The position numbers and the translations under genes are program-made. Positions 20,073 through 64,000 of a DNA stretch of 64,000 bases are shown piece by piece. The number at the start of each line of letters is the position of its first letter. Position 1 is the first letter of the stretch. This stretch comes from Closterium sp. NIES-65 (lineage: Eukaryota > Streptophyta > Zygnematophyceae > Desmidiales > Closteriaceae): the NCBI GenBank assembly GCA_948144175.1, contig CANXME010002463.1:496001-560000 (forward strand), in the 5' to 3' direction. The notes below the pieces were generated by a model. The model worked only from the letters and a program-made list of their open reading frames with translations. It was not told where the DNA came from and ran no database searches.

Positions 20073-23000
20073 TTAAAGCCCCAAACCCACCGTCCTCCCA
20101 TCCTTGCGTCTCAGCCCAGCCACGTATTGTCGCTCCAGCTGCTCCTGCAGCTCCCTCTGCTTTTCTTCTGACATCACCACCCCCACTGGTGCATTGGCTG
20201 CTGCTGCTGCTGCTGATGCCGTGGCTGGAGCGGCCTTTGCTCCCTTCAACCCCTGCACGGCACGCCAGGGCACAGGGATGCATGGCGAAGGTAAGAAAAA
20301 AGGGGGATGGGCAGGCGAGAAGGTAGCATAGGGAAGATTGGATAAGTCTGTGCAATCTGCAGCAGCTGCTGGCATGGCTGGTGCTGCGTTCGCTCCTTTC
20401 AGCCCCTACACACCATCGCGACTCATGAGGCACATGGGACGTGTGGAGGAGGGAAGACCAGAGGTGTGTCAGGGAGGGGGGAGGTTAGCATAGGAGGGAA
20501 GAGGTTGGCACAGGGTAGATTAGATTAGCTGGCTTGCCGTCCTTTTGAGACGTCTCAAAACTGGAGAGGGAGGGAGGGGGGACAAGAAATGGGCCCACAT
20601 GTATCTTGCACCTGAATGTTGCAACAACAGCACATCACACGAAGCAGAAAAAGTTGAAACTTCACTATGAGACTTTGAATGAAACTTCACCATGAGCCTT
20701 TGAATGAAACTTCACCACGAGCCTTTGAATGAAACTTTACCATGAGCTTTTGAAACTTCTCTTCTCGGCTCCGATCCCCAAAATGCACGTTCTCCCACCC
20801 CTTGCTGCTGCTGCCACCAACCCCTCCCGCACCAGCTGCACCAGTCGCACCCACACCAACTGCACCAGCTGCACCAGTCATGCCGGTCACTCCACCACCA
20901 GTTGGCCCTGCAGCATCAGCAGCAGCAGGAGGCGCGGCAACAGCAGCAGCAGGAGCCGTGGTAGCAGCTTGTGCAGAGTCCTGGAAAGGGGCAAGGGGAG
21001 GGTGGGTGACAGGGAGGGTGCCGTCTGGGAGCGTGAGGGGGGGGAAGAGTGTTAGATAACAGCGAAATGGACTAGAGTCACTAGACACATAGAGACAGAC
21101 AGATAGCATAAACGCGTTCCAATGACAAATACTGAGCAGAAGGTTCTTAGGCAGACATAAAAACTTACTTATGAACAGTTTCCTAGAAGGGTCTTCCAGA
21201 GAAAGAACCTACCAATTGCACGACAAAGCTTACACAACTTTTTTTCGACCACTCTCGCCGTTCTGTCCCCTCTCTAACCTCGAATTCACCTTCCCCAACC
21301 ACTCTCAACTCAATACCTCCCAACCAATTTCAACCCAACTCAACCTCTGAAACCATTCTCAGCCACTCTTAACCGCGCCTGACCTTCTTTGAGCCCCACA
21401 GCAGCTTCCTCTTCTCCTCTGCCGTCATCCCAGTCTTTCCGAGAGCCGCCCCTCCAACAACATTGCTCCCTGCGGCTCCTCCAATGCCTTTGCTCACTGG
21501 GCAAAGGCAGTGGGTGGAGAGGAAGGAAGGAAAGGGAGGGAAAGGAGATACAGAGGGCAGCGGGAGGAGACAGAAGATTCTGAACAATTGAGTAAGAGAC
21601 CTGGGCTCTGTCTCTCAAGCCCGGGCTGTCGTTCCAGAAACGTGGGAGCGACTGACAACTCTGGCTCTCAAACTGATGCACTTGAGGATTAGAGAATAAG
21701 ACAAAGCTGCTGCTTGTACGGGGCATGATGGGGCTGCGGTAGCTGTAGTGACAGCCGTTGCAGGAAAAGGAGAAGCTGCCGCGGCAGCTGAGCTGCTGCT
21801 ACTGCCATCGCAGGGTTCATATTTCAAATGCTGATTAATGCAAAGAGCCCACGCGTCTACTTGGTGCTGTCCATCGTCATCGAGAACACTGATTTCTAGA
21901 CACAAAAAGTGTGCCGGGGGAAGGTGAGAGGTTAAAAAAGGGAGGAAGGTAAAAGATGTATATTGACAAATGAACGCGAAGAGTTCAAGCTCCCACATGG
22001 TGCTGTCCATTGCCGGAGGAACACGTTCTGTGTCAGGCGATCAATGCTCTTGAAGGCAATGGATAGCACTAGGTGGAAGCGTGAGCTCCCTGCATTCATC
22101 TGTCAATGTGCATCTTTTACCTTCCTCCGCCCATTTGACCTTCCCTCCCTCTAAATTTCCCCTAGCACACGTTCTGTGCAAAACGATCAGTGGTCTCGAT
22201 GACAATGGACAGCACCAAGTGGGAGCGCGAGCTCTTTGCATCCATTTGTCGTTGTTGCGGTCATCTCTAAGTTGCTGCTACTGCTGCCGCTGCTGCAGGG
22301 CTCACATTTATGACTTTTGAGTCGACTCAAAAGTCAACTCGCTGCTGCAGGGCTCACATTTATCCCAACGTCTGTAGCCGTAGCACCAAAAACCCCAAAA
22401 TCACCCACCTCCTCCCATCACTCACTTAGGCTCTGGCTGCTTCAACCGTCTGAGATGCTGCCCAACAACTCACCCACCTCCCCTCTTCACCCACCCACCT
22501 TCCCCTTCCACTCACCCACCTCCCCTCTTCACCCACCCACCTCTCCCTTCCACTCACCCACCTCCCCCCTTCACCCACCCACCTCCCCCCTTCACCCACC
22601 CGCCTCCCCCCTTCACCCACCCGCCTCCCCCTTGCACTCACCCGCCTCCCCCCTTCACCCACCCGCCTCCCCCCTTCACCCACCCGCCTCCCCCCTTCAC
22701 CCACCCGCCTCCCCCCTTCACCCACCCGCCTCCCCCCTTCACCCACCCGCCTCCCCCCTTCATCCACCCGCCTCCCCCCTTCACCCACCCGCCTCCCCCT
22801 TCACCCACCCGCCTCCCCCTTGCACTCACCCGCCTCCCCCTTGCACTCACCCGCCTCCCCCTTGCACTCACCCACCTCCCCCATTCATTCACCCATCGCC
22901 GCCGCTCTCGTTGCTGCAACCATCTGCGCTGCCGCTGCCGCCGCTGCTGGCGCTGCAGGGTTCACCATTATCCCTTCAGCAGCTGAAGCCGTAACACCAG

Positions 23001-62200: not shown

Positions 62201-64000
62201 ACATCACCAGAGCCAACAATATCCAGCCCCTTGAGGGGTCGACCTATAACCAACCCACCTGCTGTGTGTGCAATCAACCTCTCCACACTCTCCACCCTTC
62301 TCCCTTTCCTTTACTCCGTGTACTCTCCTCCCTCCCCCCCCCCAGCTCCCAGTGCCCTACTTCCTATTCATCATCACCTGTGCACCCACAGAGTTAATGA
62401 GTCCCTTGCCCATCTCAATCGCTGTATCCGTGTTCCCCCTCTCTTCTCTCCCCCCCTCGTCCCTCCTACTCATCCCCCACCTTCTCTCTCTCCCATCCAG
62501 CTCCCAATGTCCGAGTTCCTTCGGAATTCACGTGTTTGAAGAATTGTTTTGATCACGTCTCAAAACACTTCTTCAATCATGTGTCTTCTCTCTCTCCCAT
62601 CAAGCCCATAGTGTCTGAGTTCCTTGAGAATTGACGTGATTGAAGAAGTGTGGTGATCACGTCTCAAAACTCTTCTTCAATCACGTGTCTTCTCTCTCTC
62701 CCATCCAGCTCCCAATGTCCGAGCTCCTTCGGAATTCACGTGATTGAAGAAGTGTGGTGATCACGTCTCAAAACATTTCTTCAATCACGTGTCTTCTCTC
62801 TCTCCCATCCAGCTCCCTGTGTCTGAGTTCCTTAAGAATTCACGTGATTGAAGAAGTGTTTTGATCACGTCTCAAAACACTTCTTCAAACACGTGTCTTC
62901 TCTCTCTCCCATCCAGCTCCCAGTGTCCTAGTTCCTAGAGAATTCACGTGATTGAAGAAGTGTTTTGATCACGTCTCAAAACACTTCTTCAATCACGTGT
63001 CTTCTCTCTCTCTCCCATCCAGCTCCCAGTGTCCAAGTTCCTTGAGAATTCACGTGATTGAAGAAGTGTTTTGATCATGTCTCAAAACACTTCTTCAATC
63101 ACGTTTCTTCTCTCTCTCTCTCTCCCATCCAGCTCCCAGTGTCCGAGTTCCTTGAGACTTCACGTGATTGAAGAAGTGTTGTGATCACGTCTCAAAACAC
63201 TTCTTCAATCACTCTTCTCTCTCTCCCATCCAGCTCCCAGTGTCCGAGTTCCTTGAGAATTCACGTGATTGAAGAAGTCTGGTGATCACGTCTCAAAACA
63301 CTTCTTCAATCACGTGTCTTCTCTCTCTCTCTCCCATCCAGCTCCCAGTGTCCGAGTTCCTTCATAATTCACGTGTTTGAAGAATTGTTTTGATCATGTC
63401 TCAAAACACTTCTTCAATCACGTGTCTTCTATCTCTCCCATCCAGCTCCCAGTGTCCGAGTTCGTTGAGAATTCACGTGATTGAAGAAGTGTGGTGATCA
63501 CGCCTCAAAGCACTTCTTCAATCACGTGTCTTTTCTCTCTCTCCCATCCAGCTCCCAGTGTCCGAGTTCCTTGAGAATTCACGTGATTGAAGAAGTGTGG
63601 TGATCACGTCTCAAAACACTTCTTCAATCACGTGTCTTCTCTCTCTCTCCCATCCAGCTCCCAGTGTCCAGGTTCCTTGAGAATTCACGTGATTGAAGAA
63701 GTGTGGTGATCACGTCTCAAAACACTTCTTCAATCACGTGTCTTCTCTCTCTCCCATCCTGCTCCCAGTGTCCGAGTTCCTTCGGAATTCACGTGATTGA
63801 AGAAGTGTGGTGATCACGTCTCAAAACACTTCTTCAATCACGTGTCTTCTCTCTCTCCCATTCAGCTCCAAGTGTCCGAGTTCCTTGAGAATTCACGTGA
63901 TTGAAGAAGTGTTTTGATCGCGTCTCAAAACACTTCTTCAAACACGTGTCTTCTCTCTCTCCCATCCAGCTCCCAGTGTCCTAGTTCCTTGAGAATTCAC
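59223..64000 (+). CDS. YGGT/YCF19-family membrane protein gene, partial, with frameshift
   Basis: Exon 1 reads SASAVSLEGLLSVAQSVVVI in one frame and, after a one-base shift near 59450, GPLFAVLNFLVILRTVMSWY in another, ending at PQ before GTGGGT (59537). The continuation LPVSGFPFIIAYAPTEP follows an acceptor at 62019 in the right phase. Together these match the YGGT family, whose plant members are thylakoid or envelope membrane proteins (helix with RIVMSWYP, then FP-IAYAPTEP). The downstream half expected for the family (VIPPL-GGVD, GPQGLL) is not in the window. Start codon uncertain (first ATG of the frame at 59223). The frameshift means either a pseudogene or a sequence error. The intron holds a GAA tract and copia E. 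Confidence 0.65.
59600..59695 (+). pseudogene. Donor-side copy of YGGT exon 1 end
   Basis: ATCCTCCGCGTTGTCATGCC with following TTACCCGCA echoes the exon end ATTCTCCGCACCGTCATGTC, and GTGGGTGTGAC recurs at 59680. A decayed copy of the exon edge and donor. Confidence 0.6.
59822..59961. repeat. (GAA)n microsatellite, about 46 units
   Basis: Nearly pure AGA/GAA triplets in the intron of the YGGT-like gene. Poly-Ser, poly-Leu and poly-Phe ORFs on the minus strand are artefacts of it. Confidence 0.97.
60248..61376 (+). pseudogene. Copia E RT-RNase H remnant
   Basis: RT from MTTLRLLLHVAAQRDYELH through YVDDLVFATADTESL to YLMTCTRPYLAYPL, open to a TAG at 61109 where the siblings have Gln. RNase H then jumps from YTFSLG to the ALCEEHRPEHRTKHIALRY region, losing about 0.2 kb including SCEAEIYAGA. 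It ends DIFTKALQPGDHQRFC. Confidence 0.9.
61615..61732 (+). repeat. 3' LTR of copia E
   Basis: 118 bp, TGTCAAAC to TTCTAACA, with a diverged GTGGGTTAGCCTCTAGGGGG block; preceded by CCTATGGGGGTG. Confidence 0.85.
61965..61996. repeat. Poly-C tract (about 32 bases)
   Basis: Lies in the pyrimidine tract upstream of the YGGT acceptor at 62019. Length is probably unreliable. Confidence 0.9.
62019..62420 (+). pseudogene. Three long copies of the YGGT exon 2 start
   Basis: Copies after AG at 62019 (LPVSGFPFIIAYAPTEP), 62137 (LLVSKSPLHHRIAYVITEP) and 62346 (LPVPYFLFIITCAPTELM). The first is closest to the family; the others have changes and frameshifts. None continues into the conserved second half, so the full exon may lie beyond the window and these may all be decoys. 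Confidence 0.7.
62495..64000. repeat. Satellite of 105-bp units: exon acceptor fragment plus 55-bp inverted repeat
   Basis: Fifteen units to the window edge. Each has CTCTCTCCCATCCAG, then CTCCCAGTGTCCGAGTTCCT (a YGGT exon-start fragment, L-P-V-S-E-F-L), then an inverted repeat with arms up to 24 bp. The arms start CACGTGATTGAAGAAGTG and close on TTTTGA, with loop TCACGTC and TCAAAA opposite (for example 62943-63000). Arms vary a little between units. Confidence 0.95.

Follow-up and report, generated by a model that had tools for sequence, protein, structure and literature searches.

The locus and its palindromes

We analysed a stretch of 64,000 nt from Closterium sp. NIES-65 (hereafter the window; contig CANXME010002463.1, labelled C2165 here, positions 496001–560000), which belongs to an assembly of 874 Mb in 2400 contigs (GCA_948144175.1). 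All window coordinates are relative to this stretch. The subject is a family of short palindromes that share the core TTTTGAG-NNNN-CTCAAAA, most of which lie between direct repeats in the window. Exons of nuoE, the 24-kDa subunit of complex I, are found in a gene at approximately 45.6–54 kb (PF01257, E 2e-42 for a hand-joined exon peptide). The contig measures 2.4 Mb and carries this exon-split gene as well as Copia elements; it is thus nuclear, not organellar, and the palindromes on it do not reside in mitochondrial or plastid DNA. For the Copia reverse-transcriptase frame of the window, the best 120 of 7347 matches were Closterium proteins alone, at up to 94% identity (strain Yama58-4).

The original prediction spoke of about ten window loci with a shared-core inverted repeat, and we counted 11. 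This count leaves out two weak matches (19618 and 61814) and adds the array at 62481, which was found as hairpins. The loci and their repeats are as follows:

20543..20560, no strand: core palindrome TTTTGAGACGTCTCAAAA; flanking repeat not found
22288..22311, + strand: left copy of a 24-bp direct repeat, copy identity 1.00
22311..22336, no strand: 26-bp perfect palindrome, centre TCGA
22340..22363, + strand: right copy of the 24-bp direct repeat
44288..44313, no strand: 26-bp perfect palindrome, centre ACGT; flanking repeat below threshold (score 9–9.5)
46763..46780, no strand: degenerate palindrome, one core mismatch; flanking repeat not found
47716..47870, + strand: array of a 34-bp unit (palindrome plus target repeat), 4.6 copies
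50097..50155, + strand: left copy of a 59-bp direct repeat, copy identity 0.93
50156..50187, no strand: palindrome AGGTGAC-core-GTCACCT, two substitutions within the core
50187..50245, + strand: right copy of the 59-bp direct repeat
50315..50417, + strand: left copy of a diverged direct repeat of about 103 bp, copy identity 0.73
50430..50451, no strand: palindrome TTTTTTTAGTCGACTAAAAAAA
50458..50560, + strand: right copy of the diverged repeat of about 103 bp, end approximate
50941..51024, + strand: left copy of an 84-bp repeat that includes a nuoE exon's 3' end (identified by eye)
51037..51054, no strand: decayed (degenerate) palindrome between the exon copies
51067..51147, + strand: right copy of the exon-bearing repeat, end approximate
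52812..52845, + strand: left copy of a 34-bp repeat, copy identity 0.85
52848..52883, no strand: palindrome with another outer arm, TGATTGAA
52895..52928, + strand: right copy of the 34-bp repeat
53345..53933, + strand: array of a 40-bp unit (decayed palindrome plus target repeat), 14.7 copies
62481..64000, + strand: array of a unit of about 104 bp, each unit with a long hairpin CACGTGATTGAAGAAGTG-TTTTGA-(7)-TCAAAA-arm; continues past the window end

Direct repeats flank eight of the 11 loci, as had been said of most palindromes; those at 20543, 44288 and 46763 had no flanking repeat that passed the threshold. None of the 11 lies in the GC-rich Copia-like frames of the window (2430–18134, 35154–41300 and 60176–61111).

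Abundance of the palindrome family

Allowing up to three mismatches, TTTTGAGNNNNCTCAAAA was matched 29 times in the window against 1.63 expected from shuffles (18-fold; the largest shuffle gave six), and 18 of these 29 matches were units of two tandem arrays. Genome-wide, the exact core was found 30,327 times, a figure that overstates the number of independent insertions because copies in tandem arrays and on duplicated contigs are counted in. A reversed, equally palindromic control pattern was found four times, and about one occurrence was expected from base composition (GC set to 0.57). The genome scan proposed with the original prediction thus returned an enrichment of thousands-fold, which does not support chance, and the palindrome family is confirmed as real and genome-wide.

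Close reading was done on a sample of 264 kb, made up of the window and 20 fetched stretches of 10 kb (labels beginning with L or C are our own). The sample contained 129 core matches with up to two mismatches, or 70 after neighbours within 150 bp were collapsed. The family accounted for 81 of the 100 perfect non-simple palindromes of at least 14 bp, array units included. No Rfam match in the window reached the gathering threshold. A viral source was considered and set aside, as a 21-base piece had no match in viral contigs.

Direct repeats around the palindromes

Flanking repeats were scored by alignments whose start and finish were both required to lie no farther than 12 bp from the palindrome, with one try for palindromes and controls alike, and both were drawn from one and the same sample. 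Abutting direct repeats were found at 24 of 29 exact-core non-array palindromes compared with 13 of 207 random non-array positions (Fisher p-value 7e-19), and at 25 of the 29 when a test with the arms set aside was also allowed. Over all 70 collapsed sites, 48 were flanked by repeats, and over all 250 random positions, arrays included, 45. A stricter local control used positions 0.4–3 kb away from the same loci and gave 33 of 190 control positions, compared with 27 of 38 palindromes whose core had one mismatch or none (p-value 2e-10). The flanking-repeat rate of the palindromes is far above that of their duplication-rich neighbourhood, and so the excess over both random and neighbouring positions that had been anticipated was borne out. 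An earlier version of the test, based on ungapped alignment (41 of 69 palindromes versus 70 of 400 controls), was replaced because tandem arrays inflate its control.

Repeat length ranged from 16 to 112 bp with a median of 41 (47 loci, arrays included), the upper end being limited by the 130-bp span that was searched. In the 13 non-array loci taken as youngest, with repeat copies at least 0.94 identical, the repeats measured 16–60 bp; among old repeats, long ones are found more easily than short ones. The range of 13 to 65 bp given originally did not hold, whereas the remark that repeats of such variable length are unlike ordinary transposon target duplications did. A strong target motif was not found in 84 boundary sequences, in which no position exceeded 0.16 bits.

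Centre, arms and junctions

In young loci, the insert is hardly more than the palindrome itself, for example gagtgac-TTTTGAGAATTCTCAAAA-gtcactc, aggtgac-TTTTGAGTCGACTCAAAA-g and ac-core-gtc. Three centres, all palindromic, made up 23,978 of the 30,327 exact cores genome-wide: TCGA (13,080), GCGC (5,851) and ACGT (5,047). The centres in the 264-kb sample and in the genome counts included TCGA, GCGC, ACGT and AATT; TTGA, ACAT and similar centres look like the outcome of later C-to-T decay. Every counted locus has a centre because the search demanded one. The sample also held 70 unpartnered TTTTGAG motifs, most of which were units of arrays or could be put down to background (31–40 expected from shuffles); half-sites being this close to background, centreless pieces are rare. 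A one-armed form of the palindrome was rejected as rare at best on the same count.

The outer ends of the arms are cut back unequally on the left and on the right, still pair with each other, and differ among loci (GTGAC, GGTTGA, TGATTGAA, AAAAGTTGGG and others). Of 47 loci with no more than one mismatch in the core, 15 had at least four paired bases beyond it, versus 446 of 20,000 random positions. Arms matched better within a locus than between loci (nine observed versus 5.3 shuffled, p-value 0.013, 29 loci), in agreement with the claim that outer arms vary by locus. GTGAC and GTCAC arms on both sides of the core occurred 1,335 times genome-wide, and the control gave none. The mean microhomology at the shorter arm was 1.10 bases, compared with 0.31 expected (21 loci), and 1.0 over 16 loci when five arrays were left out by hand from the same rows. 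At L028:9018, a 17-base half-unit stands twice in succession.

Insertion history

Six candidate empty sites were displayed, and two were counted as clean. The locus L027:9164 has a paralogous counterpart at L027:8758–8835 (86% identity over 78 bp), and the locus L024:3971 has one at L019:8811–9068 (approximately 70% over 261 bp). Each counterpart contains one repeat copy and no palindrome, and in both cases the flanks run straight through the single copy, with no loss of target. At these two loci, therefore, the palindrome arrived together with the duplication. Insertion is also what the tandem exon copies at L023:4299 and window position 22311 suggest, though these are more diverged. Two further candidates, L027:4611 and L029:5727, gave alignments too gapped for use, and a comparison of kinase-like paralogues was too diverged.

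The palindromes and their repeats are of the same age, as the decay of one tracks the divergence of the other. Repeat identity was negatively correlated with the number of core mismatches (Spearman rho −0.49, p-value 0.002, 38 non-array loci with repeats), and the core was perfect in all 13 loci with repeat identity of at least 0.94.

We also compared contig copies. When C9 and a near-identical copy on C1759 were read base by base over 4 kb, five of five core palindromes were present in both, and two were decaying in C1759. The insertion at C6:123337 was kept in all three copies (C6, C347 and C1658; judged by match length and identity), and insertions were retained between the copies on C2165 and C1649, judged by match length and identity alone. 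The copies of window 43900–47500 (on C1649) and of C6:123150–123525 (on C347 and C1658) are approximately 100% identical, and such copies are either recent duplications or uncollapsed haplotypes.

Comparison with known systems

The systems closest in form are organellar. The parts of the literature consulted on Volvox carteri describe, in organelle DNA, palindromes of 11–79 nt that have no reading frame, share a common core, carry variable stems and lie in introns and spacers; the elements proliferate in mitochondria and plastids alike, copies in the nucleus are described as inert, and the loop is TAAA or TTTA (PMC2670323). The Closterium palindromes resemble these, as far as they are described there, in being short and non-coding, with a common core and variable stems, and in having spread through the introns and spacers of a green alga. 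They differ in being nuclear, in having another core with centres TCGA, GCGC, ACGT and AATT, and in having target repeats of 16–112 bp. The GC42 cluster of yeast mitochondria is, according to the sections seen, a mobile palindrome of 42 nt with target-site-like direct repeats of 2–3 nt (AG or ACT) and an unsettled mechanism (PMC4478555). Both are palindromic sequences with target-site-like direct repeats, but the Closterium element is nuclear and its repeats often exceed the element in length. It thus shares with the organelle palindromes a non-coding palindrome of about 10–100 nt, and lacks their organelle residence, their 2–3 nt repeats and the TAAA/TTTA loop.

Paired-nick or patch-type break repair in plant genomes yields tandem duplications with filler, which are variable in length and have no target motif. 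At the two loci with clean empty counterparts, the target is likewise duplicated with filler between the copies and without loss of target. The filler is arbitrary in break repair, whereas in Closterium it is a single palindromic family.

The Closterium genome-size paper describes extensive copy number variation across six assembled genomes, and the term "palindrom" is absent from its main text as consulted (PMC10407611). A nuclear palindromic element with long target repeats was not found among the open-licence papers listed in literature searches, in keeping with the statement in the original prediction that no described system fits. Judged against that literature, the element is apparently new as a category, though organelle-like in form.

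Proposed mechanism and alternatives

The palindromic element is too short to encode a protein, and what we observed is a genome-wide family, abutting target repeats and two empty sites. On this basis, we give a probability of roughly 0.5 to the reading that the core is the signature of a nuclear mobile element of very small size, a palindrome about 18–70 bp long, which inserts at staggered breaks with a predicted target duplication of 16–112 bp. Capture at breaks fits the variable repeats, the lack of a strong target motif, the trimmed ends and the short microhomology. Among the three readings offered originally, the empty sites favour a mixture of two, a mobile palindrome and break repair, and disfavour the third, hairpin-driven duplication.

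The insertion could proceed in four steps. Two nicks on opposite strands would leave overhangs. An arm of an element copy would then pair, over 0–2 bases, with each 3' end, whose extension to the centre would give both ends X-TTTTGAG-NN. The two ends, now self-complementary, would anneal and be joined, and fill-in of the overhangs would produce the direct repeats. At every insertion, half an element would suffice to restore a perfect palindrome. The scheme would explain why the centre is constant, why the outer arms are unequal, why arms pair within a locus yet differ between loci, and why centres are symmetric. The repeated half-unit at L028:9018 fits repeated copying. The donor might be a DNA hairpin, an RNA or another locus, and the repeat-palindrome-repeat unit may sometimes expand into a minisatellite afterwards.

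Several points weigh against an element of this kind. The sample was not random, as 16 of the 20 fetched stretches were on contigs already listed with palindromes, and its palindrome density is therefore not representative. Five of the 29 exact palindromes had no detectable abutting repeat, and the neighbourhood is itself rich in tandem duplication, part of it without a palindrome. Presence/absence polymorphism was not seen in the few contig copies compared. The microhomology was measured at few loci with boundaries set by alignment, the step in which both ends are copied is deduced from the anatomy of the loci, and neither a nicking enzyme nor a free donor was found in this analysis.

The alternative that survives best, though we consider it unlikely, is that the palindrome spreads as a tiny RNA hairpin, which the enzyme of a long interspersed nuclear element (LINE) retroposes in trans through target-primed reverse transcription. 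This type of insertion, as in LINEs and short interspersed nuclear elements (SINEs), gives variable target duplications, and the absence of a fixed length in Closterium, the short junction microhomology and the insertion evident at the two empty sites all agree with it. A SINE, however, has a 3' tail and a body with an RNA polymerase III promoter, whereas the young Closterium loci hold little beyond the palindrome: an A-rich or repeat tail was not seen in them, and there is no body of promoter size. Truncation affects both ends and not one, the repeats reach 112 bp, and the 84 boundary sequences yielded no strong nick motif.

A derivation from DNA transposons, as footprints or internally deleted remnants resembling miniature inverted-repeat transposable elements (MITEs), would make the core a pair of abutted inverted termini, and we regard it as improbable. 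MITEs and DNA transposons combine an inverted-repeat structure and high copy number with a short target duplication of fixed length. The Closterium palindromes share the inverted repeats and the high copy number; their inverted termini with diverse arms resemble MITEs, and one subfamily has shared long arms. They have no internal sequence, and a transposase is disfavoured because it would be expected to leave a fixed target duplication, which was not seen (16–112 bp). No related autonomous element and no longer element with the same TTTTGAG ends was seen within 264 kb, where the partnerless motifs were mostly array units or background.

A similarly low probability attaches to the idea that the palindrome came first and, as a hairpin, drove replication slippage that duplicated its flank. 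The core was enriched in minisatellite units, occurring in nine of 36 minisatellites in the sample compared with 92 of 4,000 random segments, and the hairpin may promote later expansion. Duplication by a pre-existing palindrome is nevertheless disfavoured because the two clean empty sites carry none. Slippage would normally copy the palindrome as well, and insertion is needed to explain how a single core came to lie at 30,327 places, between flanks that are unrelated among the sampled loci. Chance or base composition is refuted: short tandem duplications abound in the genome, as the local control shows, but both the core count and the repeat counts far exceed their controls.

Beyond an inserting element at staggered breaks, we tentatively propose a wider claim, which we hold less probable than not: that the family represents a new class of nuclear mobile DNA, in which only half of a self-templating palindrome of about 18–70 bp would be copied to each end of a staggered break, the two identical ends would anneal to give a newly perfect palindrome, and the long overhangs would become target duplications, seeding duplications of exon pieces and minisatellites genome-wide.

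Neighbouring repeats and consequences for the genome

Some of the repeats contain exon ends, as read by eye, and introns consequently hold partial exon copies (window 51037 and L023:4299). With the core in nine of the 36 minisatellites, the repeat-palindrome-repeat unit appears to seed arrays. In the nuoE gene, serial partial exon copies were seen by eye in introns across window 47900–53340, with three or four copies each of VADLL.MPYI, VG.YHLLVCG and a 13-residue exon. A palindrome lies between some of these copies, not all, and the region also has a 130-bp unit encoding 22 residues in 2.6 copies. An array of a 31-bp unit without the palindrome core is located at window 48633–49173 (17.5 copies, 99% matches).

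A second hairpin family, with GTTCGG/CGAACA inverted repeats, was observed at window 51284–51560 and at about L027:5472–5553; among the matches listed, an 82-bp stretch of this family had more than 20 copies at 95–99% identity. The contig copies L036 and L027:2200–6200 are almost identical, apart from tandem duplications of approximately 38, 140 and 225 bp that carry no palindrome; the stretch is thus generally prone to duplicating or losing DNA locally.

Closterium strains NIES-53, NIES-54, NIES-64, NIES-65, Yama58-4 and Naga37s-1 have sequenced proteins on public contigs, and with several strains sequenced, insertion polymorphism is directly testable. If the proposed element is real, its insertions would be a natural marker of the positions of staggered breaks. 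In this alga, which is closely related to land plants, they would also directly give rise to minisatellites, pseudo-exons and partial duplications of exons. The element would then be, to our knowledge, the smallest self-spreading nuclear unit; its target duplications would often exceed it in length, and its ends would be made anew whenever it inserts.

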